A stretch of DNA of 64,000 bases from Chthoniobacterales bacterium (GTDB lineage Bacteria; Verrucomicrobiota; Verrucomicrobiia; Chthoniobacterales; UBA10450), in contig DATENU010000017.1 in the NCBI GenBank assembly GCA_035274845.1, positions 1-64,000 of the forward strand. The letters run 5' to 3'. The notes under the pieces are model-generated. The model searched no databases and was not told where the DNA came from. It saw only the letters and a list, made by a program, of their open reading frames with translations. Position 1 is the stretch's first letter; each line of letters starts with the position of its first letter. Shown here piece by piece: positions 7,299 to 48,123 of the stretch. The translations under genes and the position numbers were made by a program.

Positions 7299-9626
7299 TC
7301 AAAATTGATAACCGACATTAAAGTTGAATTTCCCGCCTCCGCCATTGCGATCTTTGATGATGGGAATGCCATAATCGATCCGCAGAGGGCCGATGGGAAG
7401 GTCAAGTCGCAGTCCCACGCCGACGTCGGAAACAACGTGGTCGGTATTGAAATCCCACGGCCGGGCGTTCACAAAACCGGTATCGTAAAAAACGGCGGCA
7501 CGGGCCTTTTCGATGATTGGCATGGTGTATTCGATGGTGAAGGCCGCCTCAGTCTGGCCGCCCAACGGCTCGCCGTTGATATCCTTCGGACCGACATCGC
7601 GGTAATCAAAGCCGCGCAAATCGTTCGCGCCTCCCAGGAAGAGCCGGTCGTAAATCCGCACGCGATCTCCGTCGCCCCAGGTATCGACGGCGCCGAACGA
7701 GCCGGCGAACACCAAAATGGAGTCTTTATAGAGACGGAAATACTGCCGGGCTTCGATGTTCAAACCGTAGATCTGCTCGCTTCCGCCGAGAAAGCCCCCG
7801 GCAATGTAGGGAGTCACGGAAATGCGGTGCCCGCGGCGGCTCAGGAAAGGATTATCAAGGGTGCTGTGAACAATCATCGAAGTGATCTGGCTCTTCGTGG
7901 ACGAGCCTTGCTCCTTCAAAATCGCATCCGAGACACCGGCGGCGACATCGAATAGCTCCGTCACTTCGAGGCGATATCCCAGGCTGGCCGACATGAAACT
8001 GCCGATGGCCTTTCGCATTTCGAACGAGGTCCCGTAATTTCGCTGCGCGTAAACTGAACTGAGATAATCGGCCTCGCGGTAATAAACATCACCCCCAAGC
8101 GAAAGGCGGCGATCGAGAAAATACGGTTCGGTCAGCGAAAGGATGATGTCTTTACGGGTGTTCCCGTATTGGAGGCGGGCGCGAAACTTTTGACCGGCCC
8201 CGGTGAAATTTGGCCAGTTCATGATGTCGAAATTTCCCTGAGTCATTTCGATGAAACCGACCAGTTGATCGATGGTGCTGAAGCCGGCGCCGAAGTTGAG
8301 CGAGCCGGTCCGCTTCTCTTCCACCTGAATAATAAGATCCTTGCGCCCGGTTACGCCCGTGTCTTCCGGATAGGTTTCGACCTTCGCGAAATATCCGAGG
8401 TTATCGAGCCGCTTCTTGGTCGTTTCGACGCGGACGCTGTTGAGAATGTCGCCCGGCGCGATCAAGACTTCCCGGCGGATCACTTTGTCTTTCGTGCGGG
8501 TGTTTCCAATAATGTTGATGCGCTGAACAAAGGAAGGCCCGCCCTCCTGGATGGTATAGTGGACGTCGATCCGCCCCTCGCCGGCCGGGACTCCCTGCGG
8601 GGTCACCTGCAAGTCCACATAACCGCCGCTTCCGTACGCGTCCGCGATTTTCTTCGAATCTTCACGAACCTGTTTCGGCGAATAAATGCCGCCCTCTTTC
8701 ATCTTCATGAGGGCGCGAATCTTGTCGCCGCTCGCCACTTTCTGGCCGGTAATGGTTAACTTGCCGACGTGGTAAATCGGTCCTTCCACCAGGACGACGG
8801 TAAGATTCAATTTACCGTTAATGCGCTCCCGGCGGACCTCTTTGACCTCCACATCGATGTAACCGTGGTCCTGGTACCATTCGCGAACGGCGTTGATGTC
8901 CTGCTCGAGCTGGGTCTCATCGAGCCGTCCCGATTTATCGATAAATGAATAAAGCGTCTTGCCCTTCGTTTTCATCTGCTTGCGCAGAACCTTGTCGGGA
9001 AATTTCGTGTTCCCTTCGAAGCGAATGGCGCTGACGGCGCCCTTGGCTCCTTCGGTGATCGTGTAAACGACGCGCGATGTTCCGTGGGCATCGTCGGTAT
9101 CGACCCGGAATTTGACGTCGATGTCGGTGAAGCCCTTGGCCTGGTAGGTTTCAATGATCTTCTGGCGTCCCTTTTCGAGCTCTTCTTCGGTCAACGGGCC
9201 GTTGATCTTGAGGTCGATCATTTTTCTCAGTTTTTTTGCCCCGACCCGCTCGGCGCCTTCGATCTCAATTTCATTCACCAGCGAACGCGTCTGGAGAACG
9301 ACCATGACTTTGACTCGCTCACCGTCCGCCTGCCCGAAGATCCGGACGTTTTGGACGGCACCAGTCTGGTAGAGAGCTTTGATGTCCTGCTCGACGACGG
9401 CCTCGGAATAGGGCTGCCCGGGTTTGGTGCGGATTTGGGCCAGGACTTTCTCGCGCGAAATCGTCTGCGGACCAACGTATTGGACCTCCACAGAACTGAT
9501 GATGGGCGGACCCTGGCTTTGGGGCGCGGTTTGCCCCTGACCGCTTAAAGTCGCCAGAAAGGCCACAATGACGCCCAGGAGGGCTGCCTGTATTCGGCGA
9601 CGGGTCGGACCGACAAAATGTATCAT
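7299..9626 (-). CDS. bamA: BamA, outer membrane protein assembly factor
   Basis: The start is set at ATG 9626, which gives 775 residues and a signal-type N-terminus (RRRIQAALLGVIVAFLATLS). Upstream codons in frame have no BamA features. Five POTRA domains occupy about residues 45-430, followed by a 16-strand barrel ending in the C-terminal aromatic signature FNFNVGYQF. The barrel keeps the conserved surface-antigen segments, for example LFLGGANDLRGFDYRDVGP. BamA inserts beta-barrel proteins into the outer membrane. The skp gene follows 57 bases downstream, and mqnC lies 135 bases upstream on the same strand. Confidence 0.95.
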   Translation of the reverse strand: MIHFVGPTRRRIQAALLGVIVAFLATLSGQGQTAPQSQGPPIISSVEVQYVGPQTISREKVLAQIRTKPGQPYSEAVVEQDIKALYQTGAVQNVRIFGQADGERVKVMVVLQTRSLVNEIEIEGAERVGAKKLRKMIDLKINGPLTEEELEKGRQKIIETYQAKGFTDIDVKFRVDTDDAHGTSRVVYTITEGAKGAVSAIRFEGNTKFPDKVLRKQMKTKGKTLYSFIDKSGRLDETQLEQDINAVREWYQDHGYIDVEVKEVRRERINGKLNLTVVLVEGPIYHVGKLTITGQKVASGDKIRALMKMKEGGIYSPKQVREDSKKIADAYGSGGYVDLQVTPQGVPAGEGRIDVHYTIQEGGPSFVQRINIIGNTRTKDKVIRREVLIAPGDILNSVRVETTKKRLDNLGYFAKVETYPEDTGVTGRKDLIIQVEEKRTGSLNFGAGFSTIDQLVGFIEMTQGNFDIMNWPNFTGAGQKFRARLQYGNTRKDIILSLTEPYFLDRRLSLGGDVYYREADYLSSVYAQRNYGTSFEMRKAIGSFMSASLGYRLEVTELFDVAAGVSDAILKEQGSSTKSQITSMIVHSTLDNPFLSRRGHRISVTPYIAGGFLGGSEQIYGLNIEARQYFRLYKDSILVFAGSFGAVDTWGDGDRVRIYDRLFLGGANDLRGFDYRDVGPKDINGEPLGGQTEAAFTIEYTMPIIEKARAAVFYDTGFVNARPWDFNTDHVVSDVGVGLRLDLPIGPLRIDYGIPIIKDRNGGGGKFNFNVGYQF

Positions 9627-9761
9627 AGCGTAAAAAATCCCCAGGCGTCCTTCGTCTCCGACGCTTCGCAGGCGGTATTCATGGGTAAGAAGGTGGGCAT
9701 CGTCAAGGCGGATTTGGCGCTGGCGCGAGGCGTTGGACGGAGAAGAACGCACCAGTCGGCG

Positions 9762-10853
9762 CTAATTCAAGAGCTCGTACCAATTATTCCTGCGCCGTGG
9801 CTCATAGCCCGCATCCCGAATCAGGGTTTCAATTTGCGCCGAATCCAGCCGGAAAGTCGTGCCGGCGCTGCTCACGACATTCTCCTCCATCATGACCGAG
9901 CCGAAGTCGTTCGCCCCGTACTTCAGCGCCACCTGGCCGATGTCCGGCCCCTGCGTTACCCACGAACTCTGGACGTTGGCGAAGTTATCCAGGAAAATCC
10001 GGCTGAGCGCCTGCATGCGCAAATATTCGGACACGCCGGTGGGCTGTTTCACTTTTAGCACCGTGTTCTGCGGCTGGAAGGTCCAGCAGATAAATGCCGT
10101 GAACCCGCCGCTCTTGTCCTGCTGATCGCGCAGGCGCTGCAAATGTTCGATCCGGTCTGCGATCGTCTCCACATGGCCGAACATCATGGTTGCGCTCGAT
10201 TTCAGACCGAGCTCGTGCGCGGTCTGCATCACCTCCAGCCACGCGTCGGAATTGCATTTGAGGGGTGAAATCCGGTCCCGCACCCGATCGACCAGGATCT
10301 CGCCGCCGCCGCCGGGGATCGATCCAAGCCCGGCCGCTTTGAATTGTGAGATCACTTCGCGCAGCGGCATCCCAAAAAGATGCGCGAAATGCTGGAGTTC
10401 CGGCGGGCTGAAGCCGTGGATGTTTATGTGGGGATATTTTTCGCGGATGTGCCGGAGCAATTCGAGGTACCAATCGAACGACAGCCCTGGATGGTGCCCC
10501 CCCTGCATCAGGATTTGAACACCGCCCGCCGCGGAAAGTTCGTCGAGTTTTTGGTCGAGCTGCTCCCGGCTGAGCACATAATGATCTTCGTCTTTTTCGG
10601 TGCGATAGAACGCGCAGAACTTGCAGTAAACGTTGCAGACGTTGGTGTAGTTGATGTTGCGATCGATGATGTAAGTGACGATCTCGCGGCCGCGCCGATC
10701 ATAACTGGCGCCCTTCGCCAGGTCGCGCCGGGCATTGGCGAGCACCCCCAGCTCCGGCAGCGGCCGCCGATAGAGCTCGAGCGCTTCGGCGCCGGAAATT
10801 CGTTCCCCCGCCAGCACTTTGTCCGTGAGCGATTTCTCCGATAATGCGACCAC
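9762..10853 (-). CDS. mqnC: Cyclic dehypoxanthinyl futalosine synthase, radical SAM
   Basis: This protein catalyses a step of menaquinone synthesis by the futalosine route. The radical SAM cysteines are CNVYCKFC (Cys73, Cys77, Cys80 from the chosen start). Family segments QGGHHPGLSFDWYLELL, GSIPGGGGEILVDRVR and TFQPQNT are present. The open frame reaches 10946, but its first 31 codons come from a dispersed repeat (10891-10976). GTG 10853, giving 363 residues, fits the family length better; this start is an inference. It is divergent from the D-amino-acid oxidase gene. Confidence 0.93.
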   Translation of the reverse strand: MVALSEKSLTDKVLAGERISGAEALELYRRPLPELGVLANARRDLAKGASYDRRGREIVTYIIDRNINYTNVCNVYCKFCAFYRTEKDEDHYVLSREQLDQKLDELSAAGGVQILMQGGHHPGLSFDWYLELLRHIREKYPHINIHGFSPPELQHFAHLFGMPLREVISQFKAAGLGSIPGGGGEILVDRVRDRISPLKCNSDAWLEVMQTAHELGLKSSATMMFGHVETIADRIEHLQRLRDQQDKSGGFTAFICWTFQPQNTVLKVKQPTGVSEYLRMQALSRIFLDNFANVQSSWVTQGPDIGQVALKYGANDFGSVMMEENVVSSAGTTFRLDSAQIETLIRDAGYEPRRRNNWYELLN

Positions 10854-40150: not shown

Positions 40151-41911
40151 GTGAATCTAAAAAAATTTTTCGCCGAATTGCAGCGGCGAAATGTTTACAG
40201 AGTGGCTGCGGCTTACGGGGTCGTGAGCTGGCTTCTCGTCCAGATTGCCACCCAGGTCTTTCCTTTCTTTGACATTCCGAGCTGGACGATTCGGATGATT
40301 ATTGTCGTCCTCCTCCTTGGGTTTCCGGTCGCGCTGATCATAGCCTGGATCTACGAGCTGACACCCGAGGGACTGCAGCGCACCGACGACGTAGCGTCCG
40401 CGAAAGCGCCGGCGTCGAGCAAGGGACGTAAAATCGATTTCGTCATCATCGGCGTGTTGCTCGCCGTCATCGCCATTTTAGCCTGGCGGCACTTTCACCA
40501 GGGCCGGACGGCTACTAATCCGGATCTGCCCCGGAAGAGCATCGCCATTCTCCCCTTTATCGATCTGAGCCAGACAAAAGATCAGGATTATTTCAGCGAT
40601 GGTATCACGGAGCAGATCATCAACTCTCTCTCTCACATCCGGGGTTTGCTCGTGGTCGCCCGCACCACTGCCTTCTCTTTCAAGAACAAGGAAATGGACG
40701 TGCGAGAGATCGGGCGCCAGCTCCAGGTCGACCACATGCTCGAAGGCAGCGTTAATCGGGGTCCCGATAAAGTGCGCGTGGTGGCGCGACTCATCGATGT
40801 GGCGAACGGATTCAACCTGTGGTCGGAAACGTATTATTCGTCAGAGAAGGATCTCCTGTCGCTGCAGAGCGACGTAGCCGCGAAAGTGGCCAGCGCTCTC
40901 CGTCTCGAGCTGAAGCTGGCCGAGACCACTCAAATGGCCAAGTCTCTGACTCAGGATCCGGAAGCGTATGATTTATATCTGCGCGGACGCTATTTGCTAA
41001 ATAAGCGCACGAACGAATCGACCCAGAAAGGACGCCTGCTTTTCGAACAGGCGGTGGCGAAAGATCCTCGCTTCGCCCTGGGGCACGCGGGAATCGCGGA
41101 TTCCTACATCCTGCTTGGCAAAGCGGGCGCCATCTCGCCTGACGAGGCGTCCAACGCGGCCTGGTCGGAAGTTTCCACCACGCTTGGAATCGACGAGAAC
41201 CTGGCGGAGGGCTACATTTCCCGGGCGACCATCCTGGCCGATTTCGACTGGAACTGGCCGGCAGCGGAGGCCGACTTCCGAAAGGCGCTCACGTTAAACC
41301 CCAACAGCGCGATAGCTCACCATTGGTACGCACGAAATCTTGCGCAGCTGGGCCGTTGGGACGAGGCGCTCAGGGAAAATAGCGCGGCTGAAAAACTCGA
41401 TCCCCTCTCTCCGGTCATTTTGCAATCCCGGGCGAAGATTCTTTTTGCCGCTCGCCGTTACCAGGAAGCGATCGCTTCCTGCCAGAAAGCACTTGGGCTC
41501 GAAGGAAATTTTAGCCAGGCTTTCCAGATCCTGGCGCAGGCTTACGTCCACGACAAACATTATCCGGAGGGTATCGAAGCTGCGAAAAAGTATGTGGAGC
41601 TATCGAATCAAAGCAGCTACACAAAGTTGGAGCTGGCCTACGCTTACGCGCTCGCCGGGAACAAAACGGAGTCCGACCGAATCGTAACCGAAGTCATTTC
41701 CAAGAAGGAGCCGTTCTCGCCCTACGACATGGCCACTATCCGCGGGGTCTGGGGCGACAAGGATGCCGCTTTGGAGTGGCTCGGAAAAGCAATCGACCAG
41801 CGCTCCGTTGATGTCATCTGGATCAGAGTTGATCCGCGCCTTGACCCACTGAGGTCGGACCCGCGTTTTGCCCAAGTCCAGGCCCGCCTGGTGCCACGCC
41901 GTCAACCTTAG
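40151..41911 (+). CDS. TolB-like/TPR membrane protein, copy 1
   Basis: GTG at 40151 gives 586 residues. The N-terminus is FFAELQRRNVYRVAAAYGVV with two close membrane segments (about 18-65), and a third segment is near 95-112. A TolB-N/FlgO-like domain (about 130-270) begins SIAILPFIDLSQTKDQDYFS. TPR repeats follow to about residue 540, and the end DPLRSDPRFAQVQ is a family hallmark. Such proteins probably act as envelope scaffolds or sensors; precise roles are unknown. Two paralogues follow at 43986 and 46129. Confidence 0.82.
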   Translation: MNLKKFFAELQRRNVYRVAAAYGVVSWLLVQIATQVFPFFDIPSWTIRMIIVVLLLGFPVALIIAWIYELTPEGLQRTDDVASAKAPASSKGRKIDFVIIGVLLAVIAILAWRHFHQGRTATNPDLPRKSIAILPFIDLSQTKDQDYFSDGITEQIINSLSHIRGLLVVARTTAFSFKNKEMDVREIGRQLQVDHMLEGSVNRGPDKVRVVARLIDVANGFNLWSETYYSSEKDLLSLQSDVAAKVASALRLELKLAETTQMAKSLTQDPEAYDLYLRGRYLLNKRTNESTQKGRLLFEQAVAKDPRFALGHAGIADSYILLGKAGAISPDEASNAAWSEVSTTLGIDENLAEGYISRATILADFDWNWPAAEADFRKALTLNPNSAIAHHWYARNLAQLGRWDEALRENSAAEKLDPLSPVILQSRAKILFAARRYQEAIASCQKALGLEGNFSQAFQILAQAYVHDKHYPEGIEAAKKYVELSNQSSYTKLELAYAYALAGNKTESDRIVTEVISKKEPFSPYDMATIRGVWGDKDAALEWLGKAIDQRSVDVIWIRVDPRLDPLRSDPRFAQVQARLVPRRQP

Positions 41912-41981
41912 CCGGCACCCAAAAACAAAAAAGCTTGTTCTCTCGCCTAACAAATCCTCTAATCGGGCCGGAGCAAACGAT

Positions 41982-42257
41982 ATGGCAACCTACCAATGTC
42001 CAAACCCCTCCGGGGAGAAATACACGGTTAACACGCTCAACCGAAAACTTAAGAGCGATAGCGCCTTTGCCGCGTTCTTTTCCGCCCAAATGAAGCTGGC
42101 TGTGGCGGGCGATAAGGAGGCCCAGGCCTGTATTGATTCCTATTATGAGCCTGCTGACTCGGAAATGCAGGGTCTTGGGATCCCCTCCTCCGATTGGGCC
42201 GTAATGAGAAAATGCACTGATTCAGGATCACTGCTGGCTCCTACGGCGGGGGAATAG
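41982..42257 (+). CDS. Small protein, paralogue of the next gene; candidate RiPP precursor
   Basis: This 91-residue protein has no signal peptide. The centre (LNRKLKSDSAFAAFFSAQMK) resembles the leader of Nif11-type or nitrile-hydratase-type precursor peptides. The C-terminal part is GLGIPSSDWAVMRKCTDSGS, rich in Ser, Thr and Cys. The neighbouring 107-residue protein shares this pattern, with about a third of aligned positions identical. Both lie directly before a LanKC-like kinase. A role as substrate of that enzyme is inference from position and composition; it could also be an unrelated small regulator. Confidence 0.65.
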   Translation: MATYQCPNPSGEKYTVNTLNRKLKSDSAFAAFFSAQMKLAVAGDKEAQACIDSYYEPADSEMQGLGIPSSDWAVMRKCTDSGSLLAPTAGE

Positions 42258-42303
42258 ACATCCGAGGAAACTACGCAAACGATAATCAACCCACCAGAAA
42301 AAT

Positions 42304-42627
42304 ATGGCCAAGAAAAAGAAGGAAAAACCCACTGCCTTACCTGACATCTGCTCAAATCCGGGGCGCGCGTTAGGCCTCTGGGACCTCATAGCAAAACTTC
42401 AGAGCGACAAAGGTTTCGCCGCAGAGTTCATTGATCTGCTGAAGCTCGCCAATAACAACGAGCAAGACGCTATTGACTGTGTTAACGCCTTACTGGCGCC
42501 CAGCAAGGATGAACTAACAGGTTTGGGCGTACCCCTGTCTCAAGTGGACAGCTTTAGGAAATGCACCGAGTCGGGATTGCTGGTTGCCGCCATAGCCCGA
42601 CAAGGCGCCGAAAAATCCCGCAAGTAA
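42304..42627 (+). CDS. Small protein, paralogue of the previous gene; candidate RiPP precursor
   Basis: This 107-residue protein has a Lys-rich start (MAKKKKEKPTALPD). A leader-like helix region, LIAKLQSDKGFAAEFIDLLK, precedes GLGVPLSQVDSFRKCTESG. The RKCT(D/E)SG motif is shared with the preceding gene. The Ser-x3-Ser-x3-Cys spacing in SQVDSFRKC is near but not equal to the labionin pattern Ser-x2-Ser-x3-Cys. It ends 7 bases before the first possible codon of the LanKC-like frame. Confidence 0.65.
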   Translation: MAKKKKEKPTALPDICSNPGRALGLWDLIAKLQSDKGFAAEFIDLLKLANNNEQDAIDCVNALLAPSKDELTGLGVPLSQVDSFRKCTESGLLVAAIARQGAEKSRK

Positions 42628-42634
42628 GATCGGT

Positions 42635-43945
42635 ATTCCTGTTTCTGAGGTAGCCCGCGAACCATCGCAGCGTTGGCTCGCGCTGATAAGGCACCTGCCG
42701 GTATCCGACGGCGACTGGGCCTATTCGCGGTCGGCGCGGAGAGACGACCCGGCGCAGGGGTGGAAGCTTCACGTCTCAGCCACGATCCTATCGGCCGCGG
42801 AGGTCTTCGCTCGGACCGAGCCGATCCTGCGCGGCAACGATGCGCTCTTTAAGGTGCCCTGCCGGCTGGAGCTGCTCCGATCGCTAAATTCGGGCCTGGG
42901 CGATTTCTCCCAGATTGGGAAATTCCTGACCGTTTATCCGCGTTCCATTGACGAGGCTTTGAAATTGGCTCGCGAACTCCACGGCGCCACCCGTGGGCTA
43001 CCCGGTCCCCCCATTCCGTTCGACGCCCGATACCGCAAGGGTAGCCTGGTCTATTATAGATATGGGGCCTTCCGCAGGCCCGTCGGGGCCCTGGCCGGAT
43101 ATATTCTCGATCCGAAAGGAAAGCGCCATCGAGACAAACGCGCGCCCGGCCGGGCCGTGCCGCGATGGATTCAAGATCCCTTCCAGAAGACGCCGCCGAA
43201 AAGCTCGGCCTGGCGGGGACTAATCAGCCGGCAACTTCTGGTCTTTCGCGCCAAAGCTCAACGTGGCAAAGGAGGCGTTTATGAAGCGCTCGACCTCTCC
43301 GTTTGGCCTGTCCGTGAAGTGATCATCAAAGAAGGCCGGCGTCATGGTGAAACCAACTGGGATGGGAGAGATGGCTACGCGCTCGTCGAGCACGAGGCCC
43401 GGGTCCTGCGCAAGTTGCGCAAAGCAGGGTTACCTGTTCCCGGGATTCTTCGGGAGTTTACCAAGAACGGGAACCGTTACCTTGTGCTCGAGAAAATTAT
43501 TGGACGCCCTCTACTGGCCAACCGACGCCTCCATCCGCCTCGACCTTCTTCCCTTCGCGCCGGGAGGGTTCTGGAGCAGTTGGAGCCAATCCTGTCCAGG
43601 ATGCACGCGACGGGATGGACCTGGCGAGATTGCAAGCCGTCACATATTCTTGTCCATCGAGGATCGGTGCGCTTAATCGATTTCGAGGGTGCGTGCCGAA
43701 TCGATCAAACCGAGTCGCTCCCCTGGGGCTCGCCGGATTATGTTCCCCCCCGTTGCCGCGGAAAATTTTCCCGGCCCGCCGGAACTCTCGAAGATGATTA
43801 CGCTCTGGGCGTCATTGGCTTCCAATTCCTATCCGGGGAATTTCCACCTTCTGGAGGGCGCGCCCGGTCCGCCATATACCGGCGCACAAACTGTCCGAAG
43901 CCGCTGCGGGAGAGAATTGAGCGGCTGTTAAATTCGACGATTTAG
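42635..43945 (+). CDS. Class III lanthipeptide synthetase-like protein without cyclase (N-terminal domain plus kinase)
   Basis: GTG 42854 is the first ordinary start, giving 363 residues. However, the frame upstream encodes conserved family sequence back to about 42635 (QGWKLHVSATILSAAEVF), so translation probably begins at ATT 42635, CTG 42683 or through coupling; no ATG, GTG or TTG occurs in frame there. Residues follow the LanKC N-terminal region (QIGKFLTVYP, SLVYYRYGAF). A protein kinase-like domain comes next, with lysine in EVIIKEG, loop WRDCKPSHILV (the usual Asn is His), and IDFEGA in place of DFG. The C-terminal LanC-type cyclase is absent. LanKC enzymes phosphorylate and dehydrate Ser and Thr in precursor peptides. 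Confidence 0.83.
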   Translation: MPVSEVAREPSQRWLALIRHLPVSDGDWAYSRSARRDDPAQGWKLHVSATILSAAEVFARTEPILRGNDALFKVPCRLELLRSLNSGLGDFSQIGKFLTVYPRSIDEALKLARELHGATRGLPGPPIPFDARYRKGSLVYYRYGAFRRPVGALAGYILDPKGKRHRDKRAPGRAVPRWIQDPFQKTPPKSSAWRGLISRQLLVFRAKAQRGKGGVYEALDLSVWPVREVIIKEGRRHGETNWDGRDGYALVEHEARVLRKLRKAGLPVPGILREFTKNGNRYLVLEKIIGRPLLANRRLHPPRPSSLRAGRVLEQLEPILSRMHATGWTWRDCKPSHILVHRGSVRLIDFEGACRIDQTESLPWGSPDYVPPRCRGKFSRPAGTLEDDYALGVIGFQFLSGEFPPSGGRARSAIYRRTNCPKPLRERIERLLNSTI

Positions 43946-43985
43946 TCGCGCTTTGTAAAGTGACCGCCTGGGAAACCGTCTTAGC

Positions 43986-46028
43986 TTGGCCAACTCATTC
44001 AAGTCTTCACGTCTCTATGGATTCTTTTGCGAACTGCGGCGCCGCAAGGTCTACCGCGTCGCGGCCGGCTATGGCGTGGTGGGCTGGTTCGTCATTCAAA
44101 TCGCGGTCACCGTCCTGCCAGTCCTGACGCTGCCGCTTTGGTTGACGCGGCTCGTTGTCATTCTGGTGCTCGCTGGATTTCCGATCGCGCTCATTCTGGC
44201 CTGGGCCTTCGACATCGGTTCGGACGGAATCGAGGTGACGCCGGAGCCGGCGGCCGGCGAGGCGTGCCCGCCCGCCCTGCCCAGCCGGCGAAGGAACATT
44301 TTCGCCCTGGCCGTAACCGGCCTGATCATTTCGGCGCTCATTGGTTATTTCGTTCTCTCCCGCACTTCTTTCCGAAAGCTGGAGAAGTCGATCGCGGTTT
44401 TGCCTTTCGCGAACTTCAGCACGGACGCCGCGAACGCCTATTTCGCCGATGGAATTCAGGACGACGTGTTGACCAACCTCGCCAAGATCAGCGATTTGAA
44501 AGTGATCTCGCGGACTTCGGTGCTGCCGTATCGCGGGCAGACCCACAACATTCGAGAGATCGGCATGGCGTTGAATGTAGCCACGTTGCTGGAAGGCAGC
44601 GTCCGGCGCGAGGGAAAGCGAGTTCGGATAAATGTCCAGCTCATCGACGCCGTGAACGACCGGCATCTTTGGGCGCAGGTTTACGACCGCGAGCTAACCG
44701 ATGTCTTCGCCATCCAAAGCGAGCTGGCGCAGGAAATTGCCTCCGCCCTCAAAGCCACGCTTGCTCCCGGCGAACAGGAGAGGATCGAACGCAAACCGAC
44801 TCAGAACGGCGACGCCTACCTCCTGTATCTGGAGGCGCACGAAATATTCAACCGGCCGGATCGCCATCATGACGACCTGGCCAGGGCGGAAGAACTTTAC
44901 GAGAAAGCAATCCGGCTCGACCCGACTTTCGCCCTGGCCCAGGCGCGTCTTTCCCATCTGCAAAGCTGGACGTTTTACGCCATCGAACCACTCCCCGTCC
45001 GGGCCGAGAAAGCACGGGCCGCGGCAAGCGAAGCGATCCGCCTGCAGCCCGATCTGGCGGAGAGCCATCTCGCCATGGGTTACGTGCATTATTATGTCGA
45101 CCGCGACTATGACAAAGCCCTGAACGAGCTGGCCCTGGCGCGTCGCGGATTACCCAACGATCCCGGTGTCTTTCGCGCCATGGCCGCAATCCAGCGGCGG
45201 CAGGGAAAATGGGACGAATCCAGCGCCAGCTACGCGAAGGCCGTCTCGCTCGACCCGAAGGATCCGATTCTTCTCGAGAACATGGGCATGAATTACCTGG
45301 CGGTCAGGGATTACGCCAACGCGGCGAAAATATTCGACCGGGCGTTGAAAGCTGCGCCGGACACATTCACGATTCGGGAACTCCGCGCCCGGGTCGATTT
45401 CTATTCCAAAGGCGATTTGAAACCGATCCAGGCCCTGTTGGCGTCCTGGCCTGAAAACATCGATCCGAACGGAACGATCACCCTCGCGCGCTTTAACTAC
45501 AAGATGTACGAGCGCAAGTTCGACGAAGTCATCAGCCTTCTGGAACGCAGCCCGGCGGAAAAATCACGCGGGGAAACGAGCGCGCCTCTTTCGAAGTCAT
45601 TTCTAAAGGCGACCGCTTACGCCGCCATGAAAGACGCAGCGAACGCCAGGGCAAGCTACGAAGAGGCGCGTGAGAAAGCCGAGAAGGCAGTCCAGGAAAG
45701 TCCGGACGATGGTCCTCGCCACGCCTTGTTGGGCCTGATTTACGCCGGGCTCGGCCGTTGCGATGAAGCCCTCGCTGAAGGAAAGCACGCGGTCGAATTA
45801 TTGCCGGAAGGCAAAGACGCCTTCGACGGCCCGATCCTGGTCATCTCTCGGGCCCGGATCAGCATGATGTGCGGCGATTTCGATACCGCGCTCGCCCTTC
45901 TGGATCGATCGCTCCAAACGGCCTCCGGAGTTACCCTGCCGGAGCTGCAATTGGATCCGGTCTGGGATCCGCTCCGGAGCGATCCACGCTTTCCCAAAAT
46001 GCTTGCGAAATTCAGTCGCCCGAAATAG
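43986..46028 (+). CDS. TolB-like/TPR membrane protein, copy 2
   Basis: TTG 43986 gives 680 residues. The N-terminus (LYGFFCELRRRKVYRVAAGY) and two adjacent membrane segments match copy 1, and a third segment is near 105-122. The TolB-like domain begins SIAVLPFANFSTDAANAYFA. TPR repeats with hallmark FALAQARL and RRQGKWDESSASYAKAVSLD fill about 290-640, and the end is DPLRSDPRFPKM. It starts 40 bases after the kinase-like gene, so it may share its transcript. Confidence 0.82.
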   Translation: MANSFKSSRLYGFFCELRRRKVYRVAAGYGVVGWFVIQIAVTVLPVLTLPLWLTRLVVILVLAGFPIALILAWAFDIGSDGIEVTPEPAAGEACPPALPSRRRNIFALAVTGLIISALIGYFVLSRTSFRKLEKSIAVLPFANFSTDAANAYFADGIQDDVLTNLAKISDLKVISRTSVLPYRGQTHNIREIGMALNVATLLEGSVRREGKRVRINVQLIDAVNDRHLWAQVYDRELTDVFAIQSELAQEIASALKATLAPGEQERIERKPTQNGDAYLLYLEAHEIFNRPDRHHDDLARAEELYEKAIRLDPTFALAQARLSHLQSWTFYAIEPLPVRAEKARAAASEAIRLQPDLAESHLAMGYVHYYVDRDYDKALNELALARRGLPNDPGVFRAMAAIQRRQGKWDESSASYAKAVSLDPKDPILLENMGMNYLAVRDYANAAKIFDRALKAAPDTFTIRELRARVDFYSKGDLKPIQALLASWPENIDPNGTITLARFNYKMYERKFDEVISLLERSPAEKSRGETSAPLSKSFLKATAYAAMKDAANARASYEEAREKAEKAVQESPDDGPRHALLGLIYAGLGRCDEALAEGKHAVELLPEGKDAFDGPILVISRARISMMCGDFDTALALLDRSLQTASGVTLPELQLDPVWDPLRSDPRFPKMLAKFSRPK

Positions 46029-46128
46029 GGCGGCGGAAGTCGCTGCCGGCCGCTCCCAACAATTCCACAACGCCAGTCGAACAAATCTTGTCTCAGAGTG
46101 AGCAGAAGTCTGTAATTTAAGCCCAGAG

Positions 46129-48123
46129 ATGAGCGGTTTCTTCGAAGAGATAAAACGACGGAAGGTGTATCGCGTAGCAGTCGCCTATGCGGTCGTCGCC
46201 TGGCTGGTTATCCAGGCGGCGTCGATCGTCTTTCCGGCGTGGGAGCTTCCCGCCTGGGCCCTGCGTCTGACCATTCTCCTGCTGTTAATCGGGTTCCCGA
46301 TCGCGCTCATCCTAGCCTGGGCACTGGAAGTGACCCCGGAGGGAATCCGCGCCACACCGAGCATCCCCATGGCGCCGCGCCGCCGCCGCAATATCGTGGC
46401 CCTCGTTGCGATCGGGGTCATTGTCTCCGCCGCGGCGGGCTTTTTCCTTCTGCCTCGCGCTTCCGCACGCAAAATCGACAAGTCGATCGCCGTCCTCCCA
46501 TTCGAAAACTTCAGCGACGACAAGGAAAACGCTTACTTCGCCGATGGAATCCAGGATGACATCCTGACGAACCTTTCCAAGATCGGGGACCTGAAGGTCA
46601 TCTCGCGCACTTCGGTGATGCCGTACCGCGGCAAGGAAAAGAACGTGAAGGAAATCGGCAAAGCGCTGGGAGTTTCGGCAATTCTGGAGGGAAGCGTCCG
46701 CAAATCCGGCAATCGCGTCCGGGTCAACGTCCAGCTAATCAATGCCGAAAACGACGAACACGTCTGGTCGGAAATTTACGATCGCGATCTCACGGACATG
46801 TTCGCGATCCAGACCGACCTGGCGAAGAAGATTGCCGACGAGCTGCACGCCAAGCTTTCGCCGACCGAGAAAGCGCAGATGACGCGGAAGCCGACCGAGA
46901 ACGGGGAAGCGTACCTGGCGTTCGTCCAGGCGCATAATCTTCAGCGCGAACGGGAGGAACTTCCGAAATTGAAACAGGCGGAGCCGCTTTTCGACCGCGC
47001 GCTTCAGCTCGATCCGAACTTTGCCCTGGCGGCCGCCAGTTACTCCCAGCTTCAAAGCTGGATTTATCACAGCTTCGAGCCGACTGCCGAACGGCGGAAC
47101 CAGGCCCGCACCCTGGCGGAGCGCGCCCTCCGACTCCAGCCCGATCTCGCCGAGGCTCATCTCGCCTTGGGATTCGCCTTCTATTATGGCGAGCGTGATT
47201 ACGATCGCGCTCTGGCCGAATTTGCCATTGCTCAAAAAGGGTTGCCCAACGAGGCCGAAGCCTACCTGGCGATCGGCGCCATCCAGCGGCGCCAGGGCAA
47301 GTGGGACGAATCGAATGCGAACCTGGAAAAAGCGGCCAGCCTGAGCCCAAACGAAACCTGGCCGTTGCAAAACCTGGCTTTGAACTACCAGATGCAGCGA
47401 AAATGGGAGCTGGCGAATAAGACAGTTGATCGCGGTTTGAAGGTGGCGCCCGACTCTTTTGCGCTCTGGTCGATCAAGGCCCAGCTCGAGATTTCGGAAA
47501 AGGGAACGTATGAGATCGCCGAGCGAGGCGCGAAAATGGTCGCGACCAAACCGATGGATGAGCAGACGCGGCTGCACTTCAACATCGGGATTGCGCAAGT
47601 CCGTTTATTGCAGCGCCGGTATGCCGAAGTCGTGCAATTGACCGACAGCATGCGAGACGAGCTGCTTGGGAATGATGTGGAACAGTTGATGGGAAAATAC
47701 GGCACGAGCGGGCTCGCCAAGAAAATGCTGGGCGACGAAGCGGGCGCGCGGGAGGCTCTTCTGAAGGTGAAAGGTTACGCCGAACAATTCGTCGCCGCCG
47801 CGCCGAACGAAGCAAAGCGCCGCACCCGGCTGGCCGAATGCCTGGCGTGGCTCGGCGAAAAGGAAGCGGCCATCGCGGAAGCAAAACGCGCGATCGAGCT
47901 GCTCCCGGAAAGTGTGGATGCTTTCGATGGCCCGGTCTGTACGCAGACGCTGGCGGAGGTCTACATGATCGTCGGCGACTACGATCAAGCGCTGGCGATC
48001 GTCGATGGCTTGTTGTCCCGGCCGTCGGATGCCACGGTGGCGAAACTGAAGGTAAATCCGCTCTGGGACCCGATCCGGAACGATCCTCGTTTCATCGCGC
48101 TGTTGAAGAAGCATGGCGGCTAG
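46129..48123 (+). CDS. TolB-like/TPR membrane protein, copy 3
   Basis: ATG 46129 gives 664 residues. The domain order is the same as in copy 2, with FFEEIKRRKVYRVAVAYAVV, three membrane segments, SIAVLPFENFSDDKENAYFA and a TPR region. Copies 2 and 3 are closer to each other than to copy 1, which lacks part of the TPR region. The end (DPIRNDPRFIALL) overlaps the next gene by 11 bases. Confidence 0.83.
   Translation: MSGFFEEIKRRKVYRVAVAYAVVAWLVIQAASIVFPAWELPAWALRLTILLLLIGFPIALILAWALEVTPEGIRATPSIPMAPRRRRNIVALVAIGVIVSAAAGFFLLPRASARKIDKSIAVLPFENFSDDKENAYFADGIQDDILTNLSKIGDLKVISRTSVMPYRGKEKNVKEIGKALGVSAILEGSVRKSGNRVRVNVQLINAENDEHVWSEIYDRDLTDMFAIQTDLAKKIADELHAKLSPTEKAQMTRKPTENGEAYLAFVQAHNLQREREELPKLKQAEPLFDRALQLDPNFALAAASYSQLQSWIYHSFEPTAERRNQARTLAERALRLQPDLAEAHLALGFAFYYGERDYDRALAEFAIAQKGLPNEAEAYLAIGAIQRRQGKWDESNANLEKAASLSPNETWPLQNLALNYQMQRKWELANKTVDRGLKVAPDSFALWSIKAQLEISEKGTYEIAERGAKMVATKPMDEQTRLHFNIGIAQVRLLQRRYAEVVQLTDSMRDELLGNDVEQLMGKYGTSGLAKKMLGDEAGAREALLKVKGYAEQFVAAAPNEAKRRTRLAECLAWLGEKEAAIAEAKRAIELLPESVDAFDGPVCTQTLAEVYMIVGDYDQALAIVDGLLSRPSDATVAKLKVNPLWDPIRNDPRFIALLKKHGG

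Follow-up and report, generated by a model that had tools for sequence, protein, structure and literature searches.

A lanthipeptide-synthetase-like lyase-kinase without a cyclase, and its adjoining precursor-like small proteins, in a soil Verrucomicrobiota genome

Gene content of the locus

The window analysed here is a stretch of 64,000 nucleotides on contig C17 of a soil Verrucomicrobiota genome (4.54 Mb, 95.9% complete). Within it a gene for a TPR protein is followed by genes for two small proteins and then by a gene for a lyase-kinase of the lanthipeptide-synthetase type (Table 1). An earlier note on this DNA had described a lanthipeptide-synthetase-like kinase without cyclase, preceded by two paralogous small proteins, and our analysis bore this out: the two small open reading frames and that of the kinase were all located, the profiles for the lyase domain (RamC_N) and for the protein kinase domain matched above their cut-offs, and no LanC domain was found between the kinase and the stop at 43945. 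The small proteins are paralogous (phmmer E ~4e-13) and share the GLG(I/V)P...RKCT(D/E)SG end that had been recognized in them. What had been missed was where the kinase truly begins, and that the TPR protein upstream is linked to the cassette as a third component.

Table 1. Features of the cassette and the evidence for each
Feature	Position	Strand	Basis
TPR protein (membrane-helix N-terminus, FlgO/TolB-like domain, TPRs)	40151..41911	+	Pfam FlgO and TPR
Small precursor-like protein 1 (91 aa)	41982..42257	+	ORF, paralogy, family alignment and profile search
Invariant Cys-Thr of protein 1, proposed core start	42213..42218	+	Alignment of 16 family members
Small precursor-like protein 2 (107 aa)	42304..42627	+	ORF, paralogy, alignment, AlphaFold2 model
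Invariant Cys-Thr of protein 2	42562..42567	+	Alignment
Lyase-kinase (LanKC/LanL-like) without cyclase	42629..43945	+	Homology, coding bias; start codon inferred, ATC 42629 or ATT 42635
Lyase domain (RamC_N) with QGWKLH, FK, QIGK, FD, YRYG, DKR catalytic positions	42704..43198	+	PF25816; alignment with ThurKC and its mutagenesis
Protein kinase domain: GKGG loop, IIKE Lys, WRDCKPSH catalytic loop, DFE	43325..43870	+	PF00069; alignments
His codon in the catalytic loop (KPSH), where Asn is usual	43643..43645	+	Alignments

Start of the lyase-kinase gene

The PF25816 profile scored 142 bits (cut-off 27) on the frame extended upstream, and the PF00069 match was 45 bits. A kinase start at the GTG at 42854 was rejected, because the conserved N-terminus runs upstream to approximately 42629. 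The in-frame translation of this upstream part is QRWLALIRHLPVSDGDWAYSRSARRDDPAQGWKLHVSAT. Since the segment is 68% identical to the AV89 orthologue and its differences are biased by codon position (0.45 at third positions versus 0.17-0.20), we regard it as coding. There is no ATG, GTG or TTG in frame across this conserved segment in the window. Shortly downstream of the second small gene's stop are the codons ATC (42629) and ATT (42635), and in two congeners an ATT overlaps the stop of the small gene. This arrangement suggests that the kinase may be translated by coupled initiation at a rare start codon.

Kinase genes with no usable ATG, GTG or TTG at the conserved N-terminus were seen in the window (42596-42853) and at loci L032, L033, L036 and L038, and in the window, L032 and L033 an ATC or ATT adjoins or overlaps the small-gene stop. 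A fusion of small protein 2 and the kinase by frameshift was also considered. The two frames overlap in several loci, but not consistently, since in L035 there is one frame split by a stop and in L036 there is a gap, and this candidate was rejected. A structure prediction for the kinase from two sequences reached a pLDDT of 34.

Distribution and chromosomal site

Relatives of the kinase were detected in 19 genomes of one Verrucomicrobiota family, the source genome included, when 147 genomes were searched; the matches of G128 in this search were weak ones to ordinary kinases. Among 388 genomes sampled evenly from the phylum, RamC_N was confined to the same family, and a scan of genome contigs added the AV89 record and one C-terminal fragment but nothing else. 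The profile of the small proteins matched in 14 of 213 genomes of the order, exactly the set with clade A kinases, and in every one of them a small gene lies directly upstream of the kinase. This adjacency in 14 of 14 genomes argues that the linkage is not due to chance. Relatives of the small proteins that occur without the kinase would, by the earlier note, have counted against its reading; there were none among the 213 genomes. A match to the small-protein profile in G098 (E 0.001, a 42-aa frame with a stop) was set aside as chance.

The cassette occupies a fixed site, in which metK is followed by an ArsR-methyltransferase gene, the TPR protein, the small protein or proteins, the kinase and further TPR genes. 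Nine kinase-less genomes have the same site without the TPR subfamily, small protein and kinase. By inspection, no exporter or protease was found among the conserved gene clusters round the clade A loci. Residues are kept across relatives at 41-71% identity, and intact relatives are similar in length. In G054 (L045, 8212-8589) a C-terminal piece of the kinase runs into the beginning of a cyclase-type protein, and this is either a relic or an assembly chimera.

Orthologues of the TPR subfamily, at 50-75% identity, were located directly 5' of the small proteins wherever the contig extends that far. In a family-wide search, TPR matches had at least 51% identity in kinase genomes and at most ~43% outside them, the match in G039 lying on another contig. 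At some loci the TPR protein is of a cyclase type, and an N-terminal class III nucleotide cyclase domain was confirmed in one of these (L029). The TPR family is an expanded one with many paralogues in these genomes, and three of its members flank the cassette in the window (40151-48123), a single one on the upstream side and two on the downstream side. In one MAG a small-protein domain is fused to the C-terminus of a TPR protein (L034, 1-978), which may be an assembly effect.

Absence of LanC and conservation of catalytic residues

A LanC domain was never observed in the same chain as the kinase across the 19 genomes. PF05147 is absent from the source genome and was not found in 14 of 18 kinase genomes; among the other four, one match was below the cut-off, and the three over it were located on other contigs than the kinase. 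A separate cyclase as the rule elsewhere had been named as a finding that would speak against the earlier reading, and this survey ruled out LanC in trans as a general rule.

Mutants of ThurKC demonstrated that K65, H67, K94, K117, D152, R163 and R191 matter for dehydration (PMC10604976). In a HMMER alignment the window enzyme has K, H, K, K, D, R and R at these positions, and the equivalent lyase residues are conserved, or nearly so, in 17 aligned family members. Lys108 of ThurKC is not conserved and is a Gly in the window enzyme. The kinase retains the glycine loop, the Lys, the catalytic Asp and the Asp of DFE. Two deviations had been put forward as possible signs of atypical catalysis. The DFE motif is not such a sign, as characterised enzymes of class III conserve this form (PMC10604976). 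The catalytic loop does have His in place of Asn, and all 13 clade A enzymes with sequence at this position share the change, but it is specific to that clade: enzymes of clade B and Salipiger have Asn at the KPxN position. Since the Asn is a metal-binding residue, kinase activity in clade A could be altered. The Lys of HRDxK is kept in the cyclase-less family, and of the aligned LanKC/LanL rows only that of Embleya has it.

The small proteins

All small proteins have a helical leader-like domain that ends at a Cys-Thr or Cys-Ser and is followed by a variable tail. The Cys is invariant in the 16 aligned proteins, and the next residue is Thr in 15 and Ser in one. The tails of clade A are short, one having a single Ser/Thr, and several of the proteins carry additional Cys in the leader. 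The AlphaFold2 model of small protein 2 showed helices at residues 25-85 (pLDDT ~64-75) between low-confidence ends, so that the protein is predicted to be helical as far as the Cys-Thr and is uncertain beyond. Identity to the AV89 counterparts was 38% for the small proteins versus 72% for the enzyme, and this faster change is the behaviour of a precursor. A conserved-leader precursor beside a modifying enzyme is the arrangement expected of a RiPP, and strict adjacency, a shared leader and a variable tail were all found here.

When the small proteins were scanned against Pfam and NCBIfam, no match rose above chance level, a fold search with the small-protein model returned nothing significant, and no relative was found in a viral scan. 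The Os1348 NHLP clan gave weak matches, below the cut-off, to the family consensus (E 0.048) and to one Salipiger precursor (E 0.025). NHLP leaders are long, structured three-helix proteins (PMC12455567).

Cyclase-less relatives in Salipiger and clade B

Cyclase-less relatives in Salipiger and in clade B have clearer RiPP contexts than the window cassette. The plasmid NZ_CP014600.1 of Salipiger sp. CCB-MM3, in which no LanC was found, encodes a relative of 523 aa at 40% identity. It is preceded by two paralogous precursors, the first of them unannotated, that end in ACTCNSTTVTTTTSPICTGTTTTGSG and ACTCHSRTVITTSTPLCTTTTTTTSA; their cores are rich in Thr, Ser and Cys, begin with ACTC and contain three Cys each. 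The profile of the window family scored 17-18 bits on these precursors versus 5.9 or less for 1000 shuffles. At this locus (L086, 8182-10554) the precursors are encoded at 8182-8466 and 8578-8853 and the enzyme at 8983-10554, and a methyltransferase and an RTX/beta-helix protein lie downstream.

The enzymes of clade B (Verrucomicrobiota loci L040, L042, L043 and L044) are near multiple GG-leader peptides with a leader like KTRLSDLTPKKDARGG. The cores are mostly Cys-free and often end in [KR]x[ST]T[VL]. Locus L043 also has a cNMP-C39-ABC exporter, a HlyD protein and a sigma-54 activator, and by clustering L044 has the exporter and activator clusters in common with it. The strong form of the GG leader occurred only in the four clade B genomes. 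Across 83 genomes of the family, peptides with a weaker DLxPxKDxxGG leader were seen in many that have no clade B kinase; these perhaps belong to other RiPP pathways.

A small tree built from 25 sequences placed the LanKC/LanL rows in a group with 98/97 support, separate from all cyclase-less rows; the placement of the long Lactobacillus row in this tree is unsure.

Proposed function and alternative explanations

The earlier suggestion of a precursor-like pair served by an enzyme without LanC was strengthened by the linkage across 213 genomes, the LanC-free source genome and the RiPP-like relatives. On the observed gene content, conservation, strict linkage, retained catalytic residues and lack of LanC we base a proposal for the substrate, its site, the elimination chemistry, the partner and the cellular role. 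To judge from its sequence, the window enzyme is probably a lyase-kinase with products that are dehydrated (or phosphorylated) and not cyclised by LanC. It would correspond, in a single chain, to the dehydrating half of a lanthipeptide synthetase of class III/IV and would recognise the folded helical N-terminal domain of both small proteins as a leader. ATP-dependent phosphorylation of Ser/Thr in the C-terminal tail, chiefly of the Thr of the invariant Cys-Thr, would be followed by elimination of the phosphate by the lyase domain to give dehydrobutyrine or dehydroalanine. Since there is no LanC to close rings, the product would be a protein tail that is dehydrated and linear, or one that is phosphorylated if elimination is inefficient, and since the cassette contains no exporter or protease it is probably intracellular. 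As a possible partner or receptor, the upstream TPR protein, which is inherited with the cassette, is the strongest candidate. More tentatively, and as one possibility among several, the cassette might be an intracellular RiPP-like signalling unit in which a dehydro residue beside the invariant Cys is read by a dedicated TPR protein, which would be anchored in the membrane or joined to a nucleotide cyclase; the dehydration would then be a regulatory mark on a protein and not natural-product chemistry.

It is doubtful that the small proteins are only phosphorylated, as regulatory phospho-substrates in TPR/nucleotide-cyclase signalling, with the lyase stripping the phosphate irreversibly as a switch. 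The N-terminal class III cyclase domain in some TPR proteins (L029), the FlgO/TolB-like domain, the lack of an exporter in the cassette and the fusion of a small domain to a TPR protein at L034 all fit such a role, and clade A retains the kinase Lys, albeit with His for Asn. An intact lyase nevertheless predicts elimination, RiPP-like precursors stand beside the Salipiger and clade B relatives, and the small proteins evolve fast, which is more in keeping with precursors. Closure of a lanthionine or other thioether ring after all, by addition of Cys to Dha/Dhb spontaneously or via an unrelated cyclase, appears unlikely. The invariant Cys adjoins the Thr, extra leader Cys occur in several small proteins and there are three Cys per Salipiger core; on the other side, LanC is lacking in the source genome, in 14 of the 18 kinase genomes and on the Salipiger plasmid, a tail such as CTDVGMLVAVVAQKYA contains no further Ser/Thr, and the clade B cores are mostly devoid of Cys.

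The folded helical domain makes up most of the length of the small proteins, as might be expected if these were adaptors or regulators of a kinase with its true substrate elsewhere. The enzyme repeatedly follows small proteins with unrelated tails, and conservation is highest at the Cys-Thr/Ser that begins the tail, which makes such a role very unlikely. Least probable by far is a degenerate relic of a lanthipeptide synthetase: the cyclase is missing and there is no canonical start codon, but the frame is open with a purifying pattern, the residues are kept across 41-71% identity and all intact relatives have a similar length. We retain the proposal of a linear dehydrated, or phosphorylated, product as the working interpretation.

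Comparison with known systems

Like class III LanKC enzymes such as ThurKC, the window enzyme has a RamC_N lyase followed by a kinase in one chain, with the lyase residues and DFE, but it is without their C-terminal LanC-like cyclase domain and keeps the HRDxK Lys that the aligned LanKC examples have lost. It further differs in the His for Asn, a feature of clade A, in the missing Lys108 of ThurKC and in the precursors. It differs from class IV LanL in having no zinc LanC domain. The LanL and LanKC models of NCBIfam match over no more than their lyase-kinase part, and both remain below their cut-offs: LanL, the best NCBIfam match, gave 235.5 bits over lyase and kinase (cut-off 650), and the LanKC equivalog gave 182 bits (ORF from 42854; cut-off 575).

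Class V LanK and LanY (e.g. CaoK/CaoY) resemble the window enzyme in dehydration by a kinase and a phospho-lyase without LanC. In class V, however, the kinase is of the APH type, the lyase is HopA1-like, and the two are separate proteins that act with other enzymes (PMC9486802, PMC12291118), whereas in the window the kinase and lyase form one chain and the lyase is RamC_N. A LanM-type dehydratase with a methyltransferase from Lachnospiraceae is a possible precedent for dehydration without lanthionine, as cited in PMC10676384. Its class II lipid-kinase-like fold sets it apart from the window lyase-kinase.

Searches of the open PMC literature, the body of papers covered here, yielded no description of a single-chain lyase-kinase without cyclase. 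Lanthipeptide mining in PMC7268733 required a LanC domain, and as mining usually starts from this domain, lyase-kinases without LanC would be overlooked. An enzyme of lanthipeptide type that keeps the parts for phosphorylation and dehydration but has no cyclase, and that is always encoded next to its own precursor-like small proteins, points to a branch of peptide modification in which rings are not closed and which has drawn little notice. It would uncouple dehydration by one enzyme from cyclisation, with a testable system in the sequenced Salipiger sp. CCB-MM3, and in Verrucomicrobiota it may link dehydrated proteins with TPR/nucleotide-cyclase signalling.
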